From: Natrinema versiforme JCM 10478
GTDB taxonomy: Archaea > Halobacteriota > Halobacteria > Halobacteriales > Natrialbaceae
Assembly: GCF_000337195.1 (NCBI RefSeq)
Contig: NZ_AOID01000047.1
Span: 29,303-93,302 of the forward strand
DNA: 64,000 nt
Direction of reading: 5' to 3'
The notes under the pieces are model-generated. The model did not search any database. It worked only from the letters and a program-made list of their open reading frames with translations, and was not told the DNA's origin. This document shows, in pieces, positions 1,623 through 61,723 of this stretch. Position numbers and translations under genes: made by a program. How positions within the stretch are numbered: position 1 is the first letter of the stretch; the number at the start of each line of letters is the position of its first letter.

Positions 1623-3296
1623 TTAGACGGCGTCGGGACCGGTCTTGCCGGTGCGGATCTGCGTCGCGCCCTCGACGGGCATGACGAAGATCTTGCCGTC
1701 GCCGGGTTCGCCGGTTTCCGCGCCCTCGCGGATGGCGTCGACGACCTCTTGGGCCGGGATGTCGGCGACGACGCACTCGATTTTGACCTTCTGGTGGAGG
1801 TCGACCGTGTACTCCTCACCGCGCCACTGGCCCTTCTTTGCGGGCTGGGAGCCGCGGCCGGAGACGTTGGTAACCGTCAGCGACGGTGCGCCGGCTTCGG
1901 CCAGTGACTGCTTGATATCGCCGAGTCGGTCGGGGCGAACGATTGCGGTGACCATCTTGATCTGGCCGTCGTTCGGCTCGCCACCATCGGCGCGGATGAT
2001 TTCGTCGCCACCGTCGGTGGCGATGTCGGGTTCGCCGAATTCGGGGTAGGTGTCGACGCCGTGTTCGGAGACGTCGAGCCCGTCGCGTTCGTGTTCGGGC
2101 GAGACGCGGGCCTGTCCCATGGCCTTCAGCCCGCCGAAGACTGCCGCGGTTGCGACGACCGTCCAGACGGTGATTGCCACGACGCCAGCGAGTTGTGCGA
2201 TGAACGCATTGGCGACGCTATCGACCATGCCCGGAGCGGCAACGAACGGGAACAGCAGCGTCCCGAGGACGCCCGCGGAGCCGTGGACGGGGAAGACCGC
2301 ACAGACGTCGTCGATCTTGAGTCGCTGTTCGACGAAACCGAAGACGAGCGGCAGTTGTGCGCCGGCCAGCAGACCGACGACCATGGCACCCCACCACGCC
2401 GCGACGTCGGGAATCGCCGTGATGCCGACGAGCCCGGCCAGCAGGCCGTTTGCGACGTAGAGCGTGTCGACTTTGCCGGTTTTCAGGAGGGCGACTGCGC
2501 CGGAGCCGATGGCACCCATCGCCATCGCTAGCGTCGTCGTCAGCACGACGCGGCCGAGGACGGCCCCGTTGAACACCATGTCTCCGGCGCTGTTCTCGAC
2601 GAAGATTCCCGCCGTCCCGACGTTGAACCCGTACCAGCCGAAGGCGAGGAGGAGGGTTCCCAGCACGGCGAACGTCATCGAGTGACCGGGAATGACGTTG
2701 ACGCTGCCGTCACTGTTGTATCGGTCCATACGCGGACCGAGCACCCAGGCTGCGGTGAGACCGGCGATACCGCCCATACCGTGGACGATCATCCCGCCGG
2801 CGAAGTCCTGAAAGCCGGTTCCGAGGTATTCACCGATGTACGCACCGGACCACGTAATTCCAGTGACGACCGGGTAGATGACCGCCGCTAGCAGGACGGT
2901 GTACGCTACGTACGCGCGGAGTTTCGCGCGTCCGGCGACCGCACCGGAGACGATCGTCGCCGCCGTCATTGCGAAGACGGCCCCGTAAAACCAGCCGCTG
3001 GCCCAGGAGCTGGGATCGTTACCGGCGACCCAGTTGAAGCCGCCTCCGCCGACGAGGCTGCTTACACCGGCTCCGACGAGGAAGAACGCGACGACCCCGA
3101 CCGACCAGGTCAGCAGATTCTTCGTCAGCTGGTTGGCGACGTTCTTCGATCGAACCTGACCGGCCTCCAGCATCGCGAAGCCCGCGTGCATGAAGAAGAT
3201 CAGGAAACACACCACCAGGATCCACGTGTAATTGAGTGCATTGACGAGGACGCCAACGTCGGCGACCTCTCCGGACTGCAGAAGCGTCGGATCCAT
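1623..3296 (-). CDS. amt: Ammonium transporter fused to a C-terminal P-II (GlnK) domain
   Basis: A 557-residue fusion. Residues 1 to about 410 are an Amt/Mep channel with about 11 membrane helices, the signature around [19 protein letters not shown] and the usual tail [15 protein letters not shown]. After an acidic linker, residues 446-557 form a full-length P-II domain that can be numbered directly on GlnK. The T-loop has RGEEY with Tyr51, the B-loop is [10 protein letters not shown], and the C-loop is IRTG. GlnK normally plugs AmtB in trans, so the fusion puts channel and gate in one chain. The start at 3296 has GGAGAGGTGA just upstream and overlaps the stop of a 26-codon leader ORF. Confidence 0.95.
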
Positions 3297-3376
3297 CAGA
3301 CGTTCACCTCTCCGTTCCACGCAGCGCTGCATTCAGCGACCAAACGATCGTCCCCTTCCAGTGCAATTCCGTTCAT
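3296..3376 (-). CDS. 26-residue leader mini-ORF upstream of amt-PII
   Basis: An ORF of 26 codons (begins MNGIALEG, ends NGEVNV) with a strong GGAGG site at 3383-3387, six bases before its ATG. Its TGA shares one base with the amt ATG (TGATG), the classic geometry of translational coupling. A TATA-like TTAAAT lies about 45 nt upstream of the ATG, so the ORF would sit in the 5' leader of the amt mRNA. I know of no homologue. It may be a regulatory leader peptide or simply a ribosome-loading device. The evidence is the Shine-Dalgarno site and the overlap, not conservation. Confidence 0.55.
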
Positions 3377-3417
3377 GTTTGTCCTCCAAATCACGTTCGA
3401 GTCAGTTGTACTTGTTT

Positions 3418-3428
3418 CATTTAAGGGT
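3418..3428 (-). promoter_or_regulatory. Probable promoter (TATA) of the leader-ORF/amt transcript
   Basis: Reading the minus strand, CCCTTAAATGA is the best TATA-like element upstream of amt. It predicts a start of transcription near 3397, about 10 nt before the GGAGG site of the mini-ORF and 100 nt before amt. A P-II-linked gene should respond to nitrogen, but no clear inverted-repeat operator is visible. Confidence 0.4.
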
Positions 3429-3792
3429 TAGCGTTGACAGATCTGCAAAATAACGGGCGTAATAGGGTAATCCGTCCAAAGCTAAATCAGATCTAATGTG
3501 TATAAGGGTATTGAAAATCACGTCTTTTTCGAGCGACGGTTATATTCTACCCGTTTGTCAACCAGTGGTGAGCGGTCAAACCGTTCACAATCGGGATGAT
3601 TACCGGTAGATTGCCGCTCGAGCGGGGCGTATCGGTGCCTCTCCGCTCGCGCGCGGCAGATATTGCCACCCCGGTTTGCGAGCCGGACTCGAGATTGACA
3701 TTCGTCTAATCGCCGATCCTGTGTGGTGGAGAATGGTCGCTTCCCGAGCGTACGAGTCCGACCGAACCCGGCGACGGAAGACGCGCTCGTCC
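3429..3792. other. Non-coding stretch between amt and hemB
   Basis: Fairly AT-rich up to about 3540, then GC-rich. Open frames here lack acidic composition and ribosome sites, and I regard them as noise. The AT-rich part may hold upstream control of amt. I see no convincing palindrome, tRNA or repeat. Confidence 0.5.
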
Positions 3793-24727: not shown

Positions 24728-26344
24728 TTAGTGACCGTCGTCGTGCGGGTTCAGCGTCGTCCCGTAGTTCTCGGCGTGGTCGGTGTACTCGATGAATCGC
24801 GGCGCGTCGGGGTCGAAGGGACGCTCGAGGCTCTCGAAGGCCTTCTTCTTGTCCCATCCCTGGAGCTTGCCGACCGCGGACTTGTCTTCGAGGTCGTGGT
24901 AGTCGAGCTTGGACTCGGTCAGCTCCCACGCGTCCATCCCCTGCTCGGTGCGGACGATGACGCTCGAGTAGTCGTCGGCGGAGCCGACGGAGCCGACGGT
25001 GATGTCCGAACAGAAGCCGGTGAAGTCGGCACACTCGTCACAGCCCTTGAGCGCGGCGTCGTGGAAGTTCTCGATGTCTTCCTCGACGATCATCTCGCCC
25101 TCGTGGTCGTAGACCATCATCTTGCCGTTGAGGACGTCCATCTTGCCGATCTCCGACGGCGAGATGCCGCGTTGTTCCTCCAACTGCTCGCCCATGAGGC
25201 TGTGGTAGTTGAAGTTCTTCGTACACATCAGCGCGATCGTGTAGTCGACCGCGCGGATGCCCTCCTCGTGGCCCTGATAGTCCCACTCGAAGTCCTGCAG
25301 GGCGCGGATGCCCTCGATCTCACACGGCGTGCCGACGATCGCGATGCTGAGTTCGTCCCAGGACTTGTCGGGGAGCTTGTGCTCCCACTGGCCGAGGTCG
25401 AGGTTGCCAAGCGCCATCGTCTGGTTGTAGACGGTGCCGGCGTTTTCGATGAGTTCCTCGGTCGTGGTCGCGAGGTAGCTCTCGGCTTTCCACTCCTGTT
25501 CGTCGCTCTCGGTCGCGACGAGCGCGCCGTCGATCTCGCCCTCCTCGAGCAGCGTCGAGAGGATGCCGGTTACGACGCCGCCGTCCTGGGCCTGATCGGT
25601 CCAGTCGTCCTCGACCTTCGCGGAGAACTCCGTGATCGGGTCGCCCGCGCCCTTGACGTTGTCCTCGCCGCCGGTGATCTTCCACTGGCGCTCGTAGCGC
25701 AGGCCGCCGCGGGGACAGAAGTCCCAACACATCGAACAGCCGGTACACATCTTGACCAGTTCCGGGTGGCCGTCGTCGCCGATGCCGATCGAGTCCGACG
25801 GGCAGGCGGCGACACAGGTCCCACACTGGATACACCGCCCCTCGTCGATGACGGCCTCGTCCAGTTCCATGAACCAGGTCTTCTCGTCCGGCGTCTCGAT
25901 GTCGTTCATCCGCGATCGAATCGAGTACTCCGGCGTCTCGAGGTCGACGCCGTCCGGAATCCCGACGCGGGTATCCGGCGAGTCGTCGTAGACGTCCTGA
26001 CTGACGTCCTCGGCGGGCTCGGTGAACTCGAGGTCGCCGAGTTCGCCCATCTCGTCGACGTTGGCGACGCCTGCTCCGTCGGTGGCGACGGGCTTGTCGC
26101 CGGTCGATTCGGCCGCCGGTTCAGCGGTCTTCTCGCCGCAGGTACAGGTGTCCGGCGAGCAGCTCTCGCCGCTCGCACCGTCGGCACCGCCGTCCGTCGC
26201 GATTGCGCCCTCTCGAGCGTGGTCCGTTCCCTCTCGAGAGCGAGATCCACCGCTGCCGGCGTCGGGGACCATGACCGCGTCGTCATCGTCGTCCGAGTCG
26301 GGAACGCGGGGGAAGCGGCGTTCGTCCTCGCCGTTAATCCCCAT
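24728..26344 (-). CDS. FrhB/FdhB-type coenzyme F420 oxidoreductase subunit with two 4Fe-4S clusters
   Basis: 538 residues. Residues 1-150 are an acidic extension with Cys62, Cys67 and Cys69 (CSPDTCTC). Residues 171-181 and 200-210 are two [4Fe-4S] motifs (CIQCGTCVAACP, CTGCSMCWDFCP). The rest is the FrhB fold, with TPCEIEGIR and the signature KGCDECADFTGFCSDITVGSVG that binds FAD and F420. Homologues move electrons between F420H2 and Fe-S partners. The ATG at 26344 has GAGGTG six bases upstream and lies inside the end of the siroheme reductase gene, so the two are co-translated. It is probably that enzyme's electron donor. Confidence 0.88.
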   Translation of the reverse strand: MGINGEDERRFPRVPDSDDDDDAVMVPDAGSGGSRSREGTDHAREGAIATDGGADGASGESCSPDTCTCGEKTAEPAAESTGDKPVATDGAGVANVDEMGELGDLEFTEPAEDVSQDVYDDSPDTRVGIPDGVDLETPEYSIRSRMNDIETPDEKTWFMELDEAVIDEGRCIQCGTCVAACPSDSIGIGDDGHPELVKMCTGCSMCWDFCPRGGLRYERQWKITGGEDNVKGAGDPITEFSAKVEDDWTDQAQDGGVVTGILSTLLEEGEIDGALVATESDEQEWKAESYLATTTEELIENAGTVYNQTMALGNLDLGQWEHKLPDKSWDELSIAIVGTPCEIEGIRALQDFEWDYQGHEEGIRAVDYTIALMCTKNFNYHSLMGEQLEEQRGISPSEIGKMDVLNGKMMVYDHEGEMIVEEDIENFHDAALKGCDECADFTGFCSDITVGSVGSADDYSSVIVRTEQGMDAWELTESKLDYHDLEDKSAVGKLQGWDKKKAFESLERPFDPDAPRFIEYTDHAENYGTTLNPHDDGH

Positions 26345-28034
26345 GAGCAACACCTCGTGCGACCGGCGCGTCCGCGTCTTGCATGATCGACCGAAGCTGC
26401 CCGTTGTCGACGCCGCGACACCACTCGTAGAACTCCTCTTCGTCGTCGCGGTCCGCGGAGTAGGCCTCGAACAGCTGTTCGAGGGCCGGGATCACGGCGT
26501 CGGCGGGGACGGCGCTCTCGACCCAGTCGAGGAACTCGTTGTCGGCACCGAGCGAGCCGCCGAGGCCGAAGTCCATCCCTTCGACGATGTTGTCGCCCTC
26601 GGCGTTGGTGGAGTTCTCGTCCTCGAGTTTGACCGTCTCGCCCCGGAAACCGATGTCCGCGATCTGGGGCTGGGCACAGGAGGCCGAGCAGCCGGACATG
26701 TGCATCCGGATGGACTCGATGTCGTCGGGCACGTCGATGCGGTCATCGAGTTCGCGGGCCCAGCGCTTGGTGCGCTTTTTGGTCTCGATGATGGCGTAGT
26801 TACAGAACTCGTTGCCCGTACAGCCGACCGCGCCGCGGGAGAACGGCCCCGGATCGGGGCTGTACTCCTGTGCGAACGGTTCGGCCAGCAGGTCGTCGAC
26901 GTTCTCGTCGGGGATGTGGGTGATCAGGAAGTTCTGATCGGTTGCGAGGCGGACGGAGGCGTCCTCGGTCCCGTACTTCTCGGCGGCCCGGGCCGCCGCG
27001 GCGAACTCGTCGCCGCCCATGCGGCCGGCGATGACGTTGAAGCCGACGTAGTTGAGCCCGTCCTGTTTCTGCTCGTGGACGCCGACGTGGTCGCTCTGGT
27101 AGCCGACGGTCAGGTTCTCGCCGCCGGTGGGCAGGTCGATCTGACAGCGGTCGCGGACGGCTTCCTCGAACTTCTCGGGGCCCATCTGCTCGACGAGGTA
27201 CCGCATGCGGCAGACGCCGCGGTTGTTGCGGTCGCCCAGTTCCTTGAACGTCTGGGCGACGGCGCGGCAGAACTCGACGGTGTCTTCGGGTCGGATGAAG
27301 ACGTCGAGTTCCGAACCCATTCGCGGGCCGTCGGAGAGGCCGCCGCCGACGCGGGCGTGGAAGCCGTAGAGGTACTCACCGTCGATCTCCTTCTTCGCCG
27401 GGACGAGCCCGACGTCGTTGATCTGGGACTGCGCGCAGTCGTGGGCACAGCCGGTGATCGTGATCTTGAACTTCCGCGGGAGGTTGGCGTACTCGCGGTT
27501 CTCGGTGAAGAAGTCAGAGACCGCCTCGATGACTGGCTGTGCGTTGAAACACTCGTGGTCGTCGAGCCCGGCCGCGGGGCAGCCGAGGACGTTTCGGGCC
27601 GAGTCACCGCAGCCCTGCACCGTCGTCAGGCCGACCTCGTCGTAGCGCTCCCACATCTCGGGCACGTCCTCGACGCGGATCCAGTGTTTCTGGATGTCCT
27701 GTCGGGTCGTGATGTCGAGGTAGGCGTCGCCCCAGAGCTCGTTCTGTTCCTCGCCGCCGTACTCCTCGGGGGCGACTGCGAGGTCGTCGGTGACCTCGCC
27801 GATCACTTCTGCCTGCTCCGGCGTGAGCTTCCCGCCGGGGACCTTCGTCCGGATCATGAAGTAGCCCTCCTGCTTTTGGGCGTACATGCCGGCCCACTTC
27901 AGACGCTCCCACTCGCCGCCGCCGGCGCGCTCCTCGATTTCCTCGAAGGAGAGCTCCTCGTCGGCGTAGTCGTAGACATCGTCGATAACGTCGAGCGGGT
28001 GCTTGTTCTGCTTGTATTGTTCCGTCGTATTCAC
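26334..28034 (-). CDS. nirA: Siroheme nitrite/sulfite reductase
   Basis: 566 residues with the two pseudo-symmetric NiR/SiR halves. Cys405-x5-Cys411 (CTGNEFC) and Cys449-x3-Cys453 (CSASC) hold the coupled [4Fe-4S]-siroheme. The first half retains CAHDCAQSQINDVG. It does six-electron reduction of nitrite to ammonia or sulfite to sulfide. Sequence inspection alone does not separate the two, and the NirA name follows the usual haloarchaeal assignment. The start is GTG at 28034, with GAGGTG 6 nt upstream, set within a hairpin and overlapping the stop of a 26-codon leader ORF (GTGA). Confidence 0.9.
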   Translation of the reverse strand: MNTTEQYKQNKHPLDVIDDVYDYADEELSFEEIEERAGGGEWERLKWAGMYAQKQEGYFMIRTKVPGGKLTPEQAEVIGEVTDDLAVAPEEYGGEEQNELWGDAYLDITTRQDIQKHWIRVEDVPEMWERYDEVGLTTVQGCGDSARNVLGCPAAGLDDHECFNAQPVIEAVSDFFTENREYANLPRKFKITITGCAHDCAQSQINDVGLVPAKKEIDGEYLYGFHARVGGGLSDGPRMGSELDVFIRPEDTVEFCRAVAQTFKELGDRNNRGVCRMRYLVEQMGPEKFEEAVRDRCQIDLPTGGENLTVGYQSDHVGVHEQKQDGLNYVGFNVIAGRMGGDEFAAAARAAEKYGTEDASVRLATDQNFLITHIPDENVDDLLAEPFAQEYSPDPGPFSRGAVGCTGNEFCNYAIIETKKRTKRWARELDDRIDVPDDIESIRMHMSGCSASCAQPQIADIGFRGETVKLEDENSTNAEGDNIVEGMDFGLGGSLGADNEFLDWVESAVPADAVIPALEQLFEAYSADRDDEEEFYEWCRGVDNGQLRSIMQDADAPVARGVAHGD

Positions 28035-28111
28035 GCGAACCACCTCGTGGTTCGTGCGGAGCCGGAAGTACCTACGCTTTCGGCGTTCTGCGTGCTCTTT
28101 TGAAGGCCCAT
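28031..28111 (-). CDS. 26-residue leader mini-ORF upstream of the siroheme reductase
   Basis: ATG at 28111 starts 26 codons (MGLQKSTQ ... RTTRWFA) whose TGA overlaps the reductase start as GTGA. A TATA-like GTATAG (minus strand, 28139-28144) predicts transcription starting near 28115, so this ORF would be read as a leaderless message. Its last codons form the right arm of the hairpin that covers the reductase ribosome site. The product is unlike any protein I know. The geometry suggests a cis-acting leader. Confidence 0.55.
   Translation of the reverse strand: MGLQKSTQNAESVGTSGSARTTRWFA
28036..28054 (-). promoter_or_regulatory. Hairpin covering the ribosome-binding site of the siroheme reductase
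   Basis: CGAACCAC / GTGGTTCG, perfect 8-bp arms with loop GAG in the transcript. The Shine-Dalgarno GAGGTG spans the loop and the first bases of the 3' arm, two bases from the GTG start. Folding would hide the site; a ribosome finishing the leader ORF would melt it. Confidence 0.6.
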
Positions 28112-50972: not shown

Positions 50973-52558
50973 GCGGAATCGATCACCTCGCGTTCGAGGG
51001 CCTCGCCGCGGTCGACGATCGAATCGAGGGCCTCGCGGAGGTTGGAAACGGTCGTCTTCGGGTTCAGAAGGGTGAACTTCAGCGCGGCGGTACCGTCGAC
51101 TTCGGTGCGAGCGAGGACGACCTCGCCGTCGGCCAACAGCTCGTCGCGAATCGCGCGGTTCACGCGGTCGACGGGCGGGGTGGCAGGTTCGTCTCCTGCG
51201 TCCCGCCCGCCGGCCTCGCTCGCTCGAGTCAGCCGGTCCGAGCGGTACCGGAAGACCACCGCGCTCAGCTCGGGCTCACAGCACAGTTCCAGCGCCGGCT
51301 CGGCTCGAATCTCGTCGGCGACCGCGTCGGCCAGTTCGCAGACGTACTCGACGCAGTCGGCCACGCCGGCCCGGCCCAGCGCGTTGAACGTCACGAACGG
51401 CTTCAGCGCGTCGAATCGGCGCGTCGTCTGCGTCGATTTCGAGACGAGGTTCGGCACCCCTGCCGCGTCGTCGCGCTCGGGGTTGAGGTAGGCCGCGTTG
51501 CGCTCGAGGAACCGATACTTGTCGCCGTCGCGCAACAGAAACGCGCCGCAGCTGATCGGCTGGTAGAACAGCTTGTGGAAGTCGACGGCGATCGAGTCGG
51601 CGCAGTCGATGCCCGTGAGTTTCGATCGGAGGCGGTCGCTGATCGCACACGCACCGCCATAGGCGGCGTCGACGTGGAACCACAGGCCCTGATCGGCGGC
51701 CCGATCGGCGAGCGCGCGAAGCGGGTCGATACTGCCGAAGTCGGTCGTCCCGGCGGTGCCGATGAGCGCGAACGGGTGCCGGCCGTCGGCCTCGAGGCGC
51801 TCGAGCGTCTCGTCCAGCGCCACGAGATCGATACGGCGGTCGCTGTCGGTCGGTACCGTGACGACCGCGTCCTCGCCGAGCCCGAGGTGGTGGGCGGCCT
51901 GCTCGGCCGTGAAGTGGGCGGCGTCCGAACAGAGCACGCGAAGGTCCGAGGCCTCGGGCGGCAGTCCGTCGGTCTGGACGGTCCGGTCGAATTCCGTCTC
52001 GCAGTACCAGTCGCGGGCCAGCAAGAGCCCGAGGAAGTTCGACGCCGTGCCCCCGCCCGTGAAGACGCCGTCCGCGCCGGCCGGATACCCGAACAGCGCA
52101 CAGCAGGCGTCGACGACGCGCTCCTCGAGGACCGAGGCCGCAGGGGCCTGATCGAACGAGTCCATCGACTGGTTCGTCCCCGAAAGCAGCAGTTCCGCGG
52201 CCAGCGCTGGGATCGCTGGCGGGCAGTGGAGATGAGCGATGCAGCCGGGGTCGTGGACCCGAACTGAATCCCCAAGCACCTCGTCGGCGACCGTCTCGAG
52301 GACGCTCTCGAGCGAGTCGCCCTCGTCCGGGAAGACCGCGAGGTCGTCGATGCGCTCGCGCAGCGTCTCGTGGTCGGTCCCCTCGTAGGGGTCCGTCGCG
52401 GTTGCGAACGACTCGACGAGATGCTCGCGCGCCCGGTCGATCGCGTCCTCGTAGGCGGCGTTGCCCGCTTCGTCGCCGAGGAACGCGCTCGCGGCGTCCG
52501 GCGGCGTCGGTTCGTCAGGGTCCGAACGGACCCGGCCTGCAAACTCGTTACCCGTCAT
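50969..52558 (-). CDS. ddc: PLP-dependent 2,4-diaminobutyrate decarboxylase
   Basis: 529 residues, group II decarboxylase. The PLP Lys is in VDFHKLFYQPISCGAF. WFHVDAAYGGACAIS and FTGGGTASNFLGLLLARD are family motifs. With the aminotransferase it turns aspartate semialdehyde, via 2,4-diaminobutyrate, into 1,3-diaminopropane, the amine unit of schizokinen-type siderophores. The ATG at 52558 overlaps the aminotransferase stop by 4 nt; the longer frame to 53221 is noise. Confidence 0.92.
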   Translation of the reverse strand: MTGNEFAGRVRSDPDEPTPPDAASAFLGDEAGNAAYEDAIDRAREHLVESFATATDPYEGTDHETLRERIDDLAVFPDEGDSLESVLETVADEVLGDSVRVHDPGCIAHLHCPPAIPALAAELLLSGTNQSMDSFDQAPAASVLEERVVDACCALFGYPAGADGVFTGGGTASNFLGLLLARDWYCETEFDRTVQTDGLPPEASDLRVLCSDAAHFTAEQAAHHLGLGEDAVVTVPTDSDRRIDLVALDETLERLEADGRHPFALIGTAGTTDFGSIDPLRALADRAADQGLWFHVDAAYGGACAISDRLRSKLTGIDCADSIAVDFHKLFYQPISCGAFLLRDGDKYRFLERNAAYLNPERDDAAGVPNLVSKSTQTTRRFDALKPFVTFNALGRAGVADCVEYVCELADAVADEIRAEPALELCCEPELSAVVFRYRSDRLTRASEAGGRDAGDEPATPPVDRVNRAIRDELLADGEVVLARTEVDGTAALKFTLLNPKTTVSNLREALDSIVDRGEALEREVIDSA

Positions 52559-53928
52559 GCGGGTGCCTCCGCCCGGCGTTGCCCGCCCTCGACGGCCGCG
52601 CGAACGCTCTCGTGAACGATCTCGCCGACCTCGTCGATCCGCGACGCCGAGATCGTCAGCGGCGGGAGGAACCGAACGACGCTCCCGCGGCGGCCCCCCG
52701 TCTCGATCACGAGCCCGCGATCGAACGCTGCCGACTGGACGGCCGACGCGAGATCGCCGTCGGCGGGGAAGTGACCCAGCGAGTCCGGATCCCCGGCGGG
52801 ATCGACGACCTCCATTCCGAGCAACAATCCGCGCCCGCGAACGTCGCCGACCGCCTCGAACGTCGCGGCCGTCTCCTCGAGGTGAGCCCGGAGCCGGTCG
52901 CCCATTGCCGCCGCGTGCTCGTCGAGGTCGTGCTCGAGGACGTGTTCGATCGTCGCGGTACCGGCGGCCATCCCGAGCTGGTTGCCCCGGAACGTCCCGG
53001 CGTGTGCGCCGGGTTCCCAGACGTCGAGTGACTCGTCGTAGACGACGACCGATAGCGGGAGCCCGCCGCCGATCGCCTTCGAGAGCGTCAGCACGTCCGG
53101 GACGATATCGGCGTGCTCGAACCCGTACAGCTCGCCGGTACGGCCGAGCCCGGTCTGGATCTCGTCGACGATCAGCGGCACGTCCCGCTCGCGGGTCACC
53201 CGGCGCATCTCCCGGAGCCACTCGGCGGGTGCCGGGATCGCACCGCCCTCGCCTTGGACCGGCTCGAGGACCATCCCCGCGGGATCGACGATTCCACCGT
53301 CGGGATTCGACAGCGTGCGGTCGACGTACTCCGCGCTCGTCCGCCAGCAGTCCTCGCCCCCGAGCCCGAACGGACAGCGGTACTCGTAGGGGTAAGGCAG
53401 GTGGTGGACGTCCGGCATTAGTCCCGGAACCGGCTCCTTCGCTGCCGTATCGCCCATCAGGCTGAGCGCGCCAGTGGTCATCCCGTGGTAGCCGCCCTGA
53501 AACGCCAGCATCGACCGGTTTCCCGTCGCCGTCTTGACGAGTTTCAGCGCAGCCTCGACGGCGTCGGTGCCGGCCGGGCTACAGAACTGTACTTTCGCCG
53601 TCTCGGCGAACTCGTCGGGCAGACTCTCGAGCAGCCGGTCGACGAACCGTTCCTTGATCGGGGTCGTTAGATCGAGCGTGTGGACGGCCCGTTCGCGTTC
53701 GAGTAGGGCTTCCATTCGCTCGACGACCGCGGGGTGGTTGTGGCCGAGCGCGAGCGTTCCCGCGCCCGCCAGGCAGTCGATATACTCGTTTCCGTCGACG
53801 TCCTCGAGGATCGCTCCCTCGGCGCGCTCGATCGCGAGCGGTAGCGAGCGCGGATAGGTCCGTGCGTTCGACTCCCGCCGCGCCTGCTGTGCGAGGAGTC
53901 CCTCGGCCGACGACCCGCCATCGGTCAC
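52555..53928 (-). CDS. dat: 2,4-diaminobutyrate aminotransferase
   Basis: 457 residues, class III aminotransferase. DGNEYIDCLAGAGTLALGHNHP, the Asp in LIVDEIQTGLGRTG and the PLP Lys in TLSKAIGGGLPLSV are visible. It makes 2,4-diaminobutyrate from aspartate semialdehyde. First gene of the siderophore operon. GTG start at 53928 with GGTGGTGAG about 6 nt before it. That start overlaps the stop of a 22-codon leader ORF. Confidence 0.93.
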   Translation of the reverse strand: MTDGGSSAEGLLAQQARRESNARTYPRSLPLAIERAEGAILEDVDGNEYIDCLAGAGTLALGHNHPAVVERMEALLERERAVHTLDLTTPIKERFVDRLLESLPDEFAETAKVQFCSPAGTDAVEAALKLVKTATGNRSMLAFQGGYHGMTTGALSLMGDTAAKEPVPGLMPDVHHLPYPYEYRCPFGLGGEDCWRTSAEYVDRTLSNPDGGIVDPAGMVLEPVQGEGGAIPAPAEWLREMRRVTRERDVPLIVDEIQTGLGRTGELYGFEHADIVPDVLTLSKAIGGGLPLSVVVYDESLDVWEPGAHAGTFRGNQLGMAAGTATIEHVLEHDLDEHAAAMGDRLRAHLEETAATFEAVGDVRGRGLLLGMEVVDPAGDPDSLGHFPADGDLASAVQSAAFDRGLVIETGGRRGSVVRFLPPLTISASRIDEVGEIVHESVRAAVEGGQRRAEAPA

Positions 53929-53993
53929 GGCAACTCACCACCGTCGGATGCCTGATCAGCGGTTCGGTCTAATGGTAATTGTCTCTGCGGCAT
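53925..53993 (-). CDS. 22-residue leader mini-ORF of the siderophore operon
   Basis: ATG at 53993 begins 22 codons (MPQRQLPL ... DGGELP). The TGA overlaps the aminotransferase GTG (GTGA). The operon TATA box predicts transcription starting at about 53995, so this ORF would be leaderless, and the aminotransferase Shine-Dalgarno lies within its last codons. It has the same layout as the leaders of the siroheme reductase and amt. No known homologue. Confidence 0.55.
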   Translation of the reverse strand: MPQRQLPLDRTADQASDGGELP

Positions 53994-60505: not shown

Positions 60506-60668
60506 ACCTGGACGAACGGGCTCCGGAGAAATAAGTACCTTGACGATACGCTCTCGACTCCCTCGACCGTTGCTAGCGAATATTCCTCAAACAGATCAGC
60601 GATGGAGCGGCGTCTCGGCAGTCGTCCCCGAGTTATATTTGTGTTGACTGGTTCCGTCGAAACGACGA

Positions 60669-61433
60669 ATGTCCTCCCCCGATTCGGTACTCCTCGAGGA
60701 GTGTGCGTGGCCGGAAGTCGAAACGGCGCTCGAGAACGGAACGCGGACGGCGATCGTGGCGGTCGGCTCGATCGAGCAACACGGGCCGCACCTGCCGCTG
60801 AATATGGATACTCTCGACGGCGACGAACTCTCGCGACGGATCGCCGCGGAACTCGGTGATGCACTGGCGGCGCCGACGATTCGGCCCGGATGCTCGGGTC
60901 ACCACATGGAATTCCCGGGAACGATCACGATGCCACCGGAGACGCTGATGGACGTGATCCACGCCTACTGTCGGTCGCTGGACGAGCACGGGTTCGAGCA
61001 CGTCGTCCTCGTCCCGACCCACGGCGGGAACTTCGCGCCGGTCTCGACCGTCGCGCCCGAGATCGCCCGCGAGATAGACGCGTCCGTGATCGCCCTCGCG
61101 GACCTCGACGACCACATGGAACTGCTCAACGAGGGGCTCCGCGCGGCCGGCGTGGAGTACCAACAGGACGTGATCCACGCCGGGGCCGCCGAAACGGCCA
61201 TGATCCTCGCGATCGAGGAGGGGTTCGTCCGGACGGATCGACTCGAGACGGGGCCGGAGGGAGCCATCTCCACCGCCCGCCTCCTCAGCGACGGATTCGA
61301 GTCGATCACTGAGAACGGCGTGCTGGGCGATCCCGGTGAAGGCACCGCCGACGCCGGCGAGGCGATTTTCGACGCCGTCACCGATGCGTACGTCGAACGG
61401 ATCGAAGCCGAGCGCGAGGCGGTCCGAGAGTAG
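60669..61433 (+). CDS. Creatininase-family amidohydrolase
   Basis: 254 residues. The metal-binding signature AVGSIEQHGPHLPLNMDTL and the later VLVPTHGGN and EGTADAGEAIFDA are typical. In archaea, relatives include the FAPy deformylase ArfB of F420/riboflavin synthesis and other amide hydrolases. Which one this is cannot be told here. TATA box TTATATTTG lies about 35 nt upstream. Confidence 0.88.
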   Translation: MSSPDSVLLEECAWPEVETALENGTRTAIVAVGSIEQHGPHLPLNMDTLDGDELSRRIAAELGDALAAPTIRPGCSGHHMEFPGTITMPPETLMDVIHAYCRSLDEHGFEHVVLVPTHGGNFAPVSTVAPEIAREIDASVIALADLDDHMELLNEGLRAAGVEYQQDVIHAGAAETAMILAIEEGFVRTDRLETGPEGAISTARLLSDGFESITENGVLGDPGEGTADAGEAIFDAVTDAYVERIEAEREAVRE

Positions 61434-61723
61434 AGGGTGTACTGACGGCAAGTCTATGACAGATCCCCTCATGGAGATCCGAACACACCTGCTCACAACC
61501 GATCTCGCGAACCCCTTCGTTTCGGATGGAGACCCCGTGACGCGGTCACGTCTGACGACGGCACAGCGGCGTGGTATATGACACAGGCCCGCCGCTTCTG
61601 CCAGACACCCCGCCGTTTTGCGTAGCGCGGCGTGACCGTTCCGAGCCGGAACCGATCGCGGGCTGTGAGACGTGTCGCAGTCGACTCGAGTCCGATCCCA
61701 TCTCGTCCGCGCTACCGCTCGTT

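Follow-up and report, generated by a model that had tools for sequence, protein, structure and literature searches.

According to a study of mycobacteria, leaderless transcripts and small proteins are reportedly common in these bacteria, which offers a lead for comparison with the archaeal systems considered here. In Haloferax volcanii, the coupling of translation at ATGA and TGATG overlaps is strict, and Shine-Dalgarno (SD) motifs commonly aid reinitiation; an SD in a haloarchaeal 5'-UTR does not drive de novo, first-round initiation (PMC6728339). Leaderless GUG starts are native but weak, GTG yielding 2.6% of the AUG level in reporters (PMC4983044). The amt-glnK transcripts of Haloferax and other haloarchaea are induced by nitrogen limitation through a regulator described as unknown, and regulators of the NtrC and NrpR types have been reported to be absent in haloarchaea (PMC3831643; PMC6801745). 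Text searches of open-access papers gave no description of a leader of this kind at amt.

The window analyzed here, a stretch of 64,000 nucleotides from Natrinema versiforme, contains a gene for an ammonium transporter fused to a P-II domain (amt-PII, Table 1), which is the sole Amt in the 4.19-Mb genome assembly. A hemB gene (PF00490) is located upstream, on the same strand. A preliminary description of the sequence had proposed a 26-codon leader ORF that starts at ATG 3376, six bases after a GGAGG, shares one base of its stop codon with the amt ATG 3296, and carries the amt ribosome site in its last codons. All of these elements are present. As shown below, the conserved frame is longer than the one described, and the analysis suggests that it is the frame and its junction with amt, rather than the encoded peptide, that have been retained.

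Table 1. Features of the amt-PII and reductase loci, with positions in the window
Feature	Position	Strand	Remarks
amt-PII fusion gene (ammonium transporter and P-II domain)	1623..3296	-	PF00909 2.6e-92, PF00543 1e-26
TGATG overlap of leader stop and amt start	3294..3298	-	1 shared base; leader stop 3298-3296
Mini-ORF, predicted leaderless, GTG start, 32 codons	3296..3394	-	Open frame; homologues in 78/81 loci
26-codon ORF of the preliminary description	3296..3376	-	Internal in-frame ATG start of the 32-codon frame
amt Shine-Dalgarno GAGGTGA, within the last leader codons	3304..3310	-	
Motif copy 2, GACGATCGTT, +43 to +52	3343..3352	-	Palindromic consensus GACRNNYGTC; top palindromic 10-mer of the region
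Motif copy 1, GACAAACATG, +12 to +21 from GTG	3374..3383	-	Block is conserved; pairs best with copy 2 as a direct repeat
GGAGGA ahead of ATG 3376	3382..3387	-	Codons 3-5 of the 32-codon ORF
TATA box TTAAAT; first base 30 bases ahead of GTG 3394	3419..3424	-	Position kept in nearly all relatives
Ferredoxin-type nitrite/sulfite reductase gene, coupled to a 26-codon mini-ORF	26334..28034	-	PF01077, PF03460
26-codon near-leaderless mini-ORF before the siroheme reductase, MGLQKSTQNAESVGTSGSARTTRWFA	28031..28111	-	TATA at -32; GTGA overlap

A mini-ORF is conserved upstream of amt in the haloarchaea

The comparison covered 80 amt-PII loci from about 30 haloarchaeal genera, picked by Amt similarity alone, which together with the locus in the window gave a set of 81. 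At 74 of these, a GTG located 27-30 bases (mostly 30) from a TATA element opens a short frame that ends at or near the amt start. Another three loci have an ATG start and one has a degenerate TATA element, which brings the mini-ORFs of this kind to 78/81. The start codon is GTG in 75 of the 78 mini-ORFs, and the TATA element is placed at -30 from the start, with constant spacing, in nearly all loci. The length of the mini-ORF ranges from 20 to 47 codons, and despite this variation 66/78 share 1 or 4 bases with the amt start, while an SD-like element for amt is located inside the leader in 68/78. The frame-breaking changes that would have spoken against the mini-ORF were not found in the relatives. 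One locus, L077, has no leader at amt-PII.

Since GTG 3394 lies 30 bases below the TATA box, the mRNA is predicted to begin at this codon, giving a leaderless transcript with an ORF of 32 codons. The 26-codon ORF is thus real, but the conserved frame is the longer one that extends up to GTG 3394. A transcription start inside the ORF had been named as an objection to the earlier proposal; the predicted start is instead at the first codon of the longer frame. Initiation at ATG 3376 by means of the GGAGG, on a transcript with a 5'-UTR, is an improbable alternative. The SD and its spacing are good in this genome, the GTG is gone from loci L035 and L064, which keep the remaining frame from an internal ATG, and seven loci pair an ATG at codon 7 with a 5-base SD core ahead of it. 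However, such a start is rare in the relatives, with ATG at codon 7 in 21/78 loci, and an SD is reported to be non-functional in first-round haloarchaeal initiation (PMC6728339). The ATG with its GGAGG is therefore probably not the ancestral start, and it is possible that ATG-7 serves as a secondary start in some species. A start of amt itself at the in-frame ATG 3332 was rejected, because a stop in the amt frame is located 20-40 bases upstream of ATG 3296 in most relatives.

Most unfused haloarchaeal amt genes are also preceded by the same leader, with the same blocks at fixed positions. Some unfused genes have no leader according to the rule used here, and several of the missed ones show ACGAACGT-like blocks upstream. 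In three Haloferax-like genomes with tandem amt genes (L116, L120, and L126), a leader is located ahead of each of the two genes; the second of these leaders starts with ATG, and its conserved position is occupied by NMNDCP. Further upstream of the mini-ORF, about 85-110 bases from its start, the window contains another promoter-like block, CCCTTATACACATTAGATC, at about 3480-3510 on the minus strand. This block is common to several relatives (L007, L010, L013, L026, and L052) and is possibly a distal promoter or a regulator site.

The open frame compared with shifted frames and neighbouring DNA

From codon 3 to the end of the mini-ORFs, no stop was found among 1986 codons in frame, compared with 136 and 86 stops in 1908 codons of the shifted frames, counts that do not represent independent trials, as the loci are related and the definition of the ORF itself picks open frames. 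Just 3 of the 81 unselected loci failed this definition. Mini-ORFs that are TATA-anchored and overlap a long ORF numbered 65 at amt, as against a single other case in 0.90 Mb strand-bases of neighbouring DNA, which is more than chance would give; within the window, amt alone passed the strict rule for such mini-ORFs. That the arrangement is a general haloarchaeal feature was rejected on the grounds that coupled, TATA-anchored mini-ORFs are almost confined to amt and nir in the neighbouring DNA and the nir and glnA loci. The 30 glnA loci contained neither the leader nor the twin motif described below, save for one unrelated-looking short ORF in L244.

Two other short frames were observed on the minus strand of the window. 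A TATA-anchored mini-ORF of 22 codons at 53993 has a 4-base overlap with the start of a class-III aminotransferase gene (52555-53928), and another of 18 codons at 61549 has a 4-base overlap with the start of an ORF of 287 residues (60633-61496).

The peptide drifts while the frame is kept

In close pairs of leaders, divergence at the first, second, and third codon positions was 0.211, 0.192, and 0.210, as compared with 0.138, 0.108, and 0.272 for amt in the same pairs, which corresponds to an ordinary third-position bias. The pN/pS ratio of the leader in frame was about equal to that of out-of-frame controls. The equal divergence across codon positions, next to the normal bias of amt, indicates that the frame and the junction are under selection and that the peptide is free to drift. 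Consistently, a search with the peptide in the family gave matches mostly within the genus, as expected if the peptide drifts. A function at the level of the peptide was rejected, since the codon-position and pN/pS tests, with their out-of-frame and amt controls, are against it.

These results bear on two ways in which the peptide itself could matter. In the first, the nascent chain of a regulatory leader peptide would stall the ribosome on a nitrogen metabolite and thereby control the translation of amt. The 24-32 residues would be enough to fill the exit tunnel, and some residues do recur, T-N at positions 5-6 and D-x-R/C/H at positions 15-17. However, the recurring residues follow from nucleotide motifs that lie in two separate codon phases, there is no selection on the amino acids, and the C-terminus, where arrest peptides have their most important residues, varies and is shaped mainly by the amt SD. 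Nor is there an attenuator structure: RNAalifold gave an energy of 0.0 for the first 66 bases of 44 sequences, the folds of whole leaders had z about 0, and no Rfam family matched the leader above its gathering score. A riboswitch or other RNA structure was rejected on the negative alifold and Rfam results, and we consider a regulatory leader peptide to be very unlikely. In the second, the mini-ORF would encode a functional small protein with Amt or PII as its target, in the manner of Methanosarcina sP36. The mini-ORF adjoins amt, and archaeal small proteins that regulate nitrogen proteins are known (PMC10714827), but its sequence drifts even between close species, it has no Pfam match, and it is half the size of sP36, which makes this possibility an exceedingly slim one.

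The preliminary description had left the choice between a nitrogen-related leader peptide and a coupling device. The coupling part is upheld by a frame and an overlap that are kept in about 30 genera, while the leader peptide is contradicted by the equal rates at the three codon positions. As the frame and the junction are preserved and the peptide sequence is not, the mini-ORF looks less like a gene for a peptide than like an on-ramp by which ribosomes reach the transporter. We therefore think that it probably is a ribosome entry ORF, which feeds amt by termination-reinitiation.

A twin motif at fixed positions in the leader

Three blocks of the leader keep a fixed distance from the beginning of the frame. 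CGTGA is found at the start itself, ACRAAC occupies +13 to +18, and TGGACRNNYRT occupies +41 to +51. The latter two are copies of one motif, the partly palindromic GACRNNYRT, which is present twice in the leader, 31 bases apart and in different codon phases. A spacing of 31 gave the best direct-repeat scores among 8556 pairwise motif comparisons, and +43 was the best palindrome. The identity within the leader at shift 31 was 0.47 versus a mean of 0.265 (sd 0.055) for shifts 9-44. Furthermore, the wobble positions in the motif blocks are conserved as much as the other positions. The fixed spacing of the motifs shows that part of the conservation of the leader has a cause other than translation. 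Motif copy 1 has its strongest form in ACGAACGTAGC, a stretch near the leader start that distant families (L034, L040, L060, L171-L173, L175, L178, and L202) share almost to the letter.

Because amt-glnK is regulated by nitrogen through a regulator described as unknown (PMC3831643; PMC6801745), the twin motif is a concrete candidate site, and we tentatively suggest that a nitrogen regulator could bind it and act there, a short distance below the transcription start site (TSS). Taken as an explanation of the leader, this would mean that a dimeric regulator on the two GACRNNYRT sites blocks the transcription of amt when ammonium is plentiful, and that the ORF matters less. We regard this as a serious possibility, if one that falls short of probable. 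The two sites are separated by 31 bp, corresponding to about three DNA turns, and are located just downstream of the predicted TSS, and the repeat scores, the identity at shift 31, and the conserved wobble positions fit with a DNA operator. The palindrome and the fixed-spacing repeats of an operator are thus seen, but sites shared with other genes are not. The longer leader pattern has a single occurrence in this genome, at amt, and is found at no other gene; when one mismatch was allowed, a shorter two-site pattern matched 48 times, as compared with 13 for a reversed control, an excess that was taken as coding bias and is hence uninformative. With the motif missing at glnA and the longer pattern present once in the genome, no regulon is seen, and a regulon of the leader motif was rejected. 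The two copies show no covariation within lineages (p=0.37), and a site at the RNA level or for an sRNA would fit equally well. Finally, an operator leaves the open frame and the overlap unexplained.

A similar mini-ORF precedes the nitrite/sulfite reductase gene

The preliminary description had drawn attention to a 26-codon leader at a siroheme reductase gene, with a sequence different from that at amt. This leader is present, and the two peptides are unrelated. The best NCBIfam match of the reductase is ferredoxin-nitrite reductase, at a score below the cut-off of that model. The equal length of the two leaders holds in this genome and is a coincidence, as the reductase leader varies from 19 to 26 codons within the genus. 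A mini-ORF of at least 15 codons that overlaps the reductase start by 4 bases was identified in 24/25 relatives. The TATA element is located at -31 or -32 in most of the close family, and the peptide is not kept. The design shared by the amt and reductase leaders is real, and the suggested link to nitrogen holds insofar as this design is also found ahead of a nitrite/sulfite reductase gene.

Discussion

The ribosome entry ORF that we favor would operate as follows. Transcription would start at GTG 3394 itself, so that a ribosome could enter at the leaderless 5' end and make a peptide of 32 codons, which is of no importance in itself. The ribosome would then terminate atop the amt start codon and reinitiate there, assisted by the SD of amt (GAGGTGA). 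The synthesis of Amt-PII would in this way depend on leaderless GUG initiation, and since such initiation is reported to be weak, the output of this membrane protein would be kept low and controllable. A TSS at the GTG, translation of the mini-ORF, strict coupling, and low output are all inferred from sequence features: the TATA-GTG spacing, the frame, the overlap, and the SD are kept, and the peptide is not. The 1- or 4-base overlap and the position of the downstream SD inside the upstream ORF are the features expected of termination-reinitiation. Against an entry ORF, the leader may be translated at a low level only, as GTG is a poor leaderless start; the two loci without the GTG would need to use the internal ATG; and L077, as well as some unfused amt genes by the rule, have no mini-ORF.

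Taken together, the leader at the ammonium-uptake gene may consist of two layers, a GUG mini-ORF that meters ribosomes by obligatory reinitiation and a pair of nitrogen-regulator sites within its first 52 bases, with a similar, independently shaped entry ORF at the nitrite/sulfite reductase gene, although this combined picture is a rather doubtful one. If it is true, a short ORF has been kept across an archaeal class for its frame and junction alone, while its peptide drifted. The 31-bp twin motif would provide a sequence handle on the regulator that turns on haloarchaeal amt-glnK under nitrogen limitation. Moreover, mini-ORFs of this type are missed by gene annotation, and amt expression constructs without the leader may fail.

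Among the known systems, sP36 of Methanosarcina mazei is similar in that it is a small protein tied to the Amt/GlnK control of nitrogen (PMC10714827). However, sP36 is a protein of 61 residues that binds AmtB1 and GlnK1, whereas the peptide of the amt leader is not conserved. The uORFs of H. volcanii resemble the mini-ORF in being ORFs of 15-31 residues located before normal genes, including transport genes (PMC4983044). They differ in that the 16 ORFs reside in 5'-UTRs of 150-250 nt, with no amt gene among them, while the amt mini-ORF begins at the predicted 5' end of the mRNA and overlaps the gene start. The coupled genes of H. volcanii share with the amt locus the ATGA or TGATG overlap, the location of the downstream SD inside the upstream frame, and the expected dependence of the downstream gene on upstream translation (PMC6728339). 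In those pairs, however, both partners are ordinary genes, whereas the upstream partner of amt is a mini-ORF of 20-47 codons, the peptide of which is not conserved and which has apparently been kept for coupling only.
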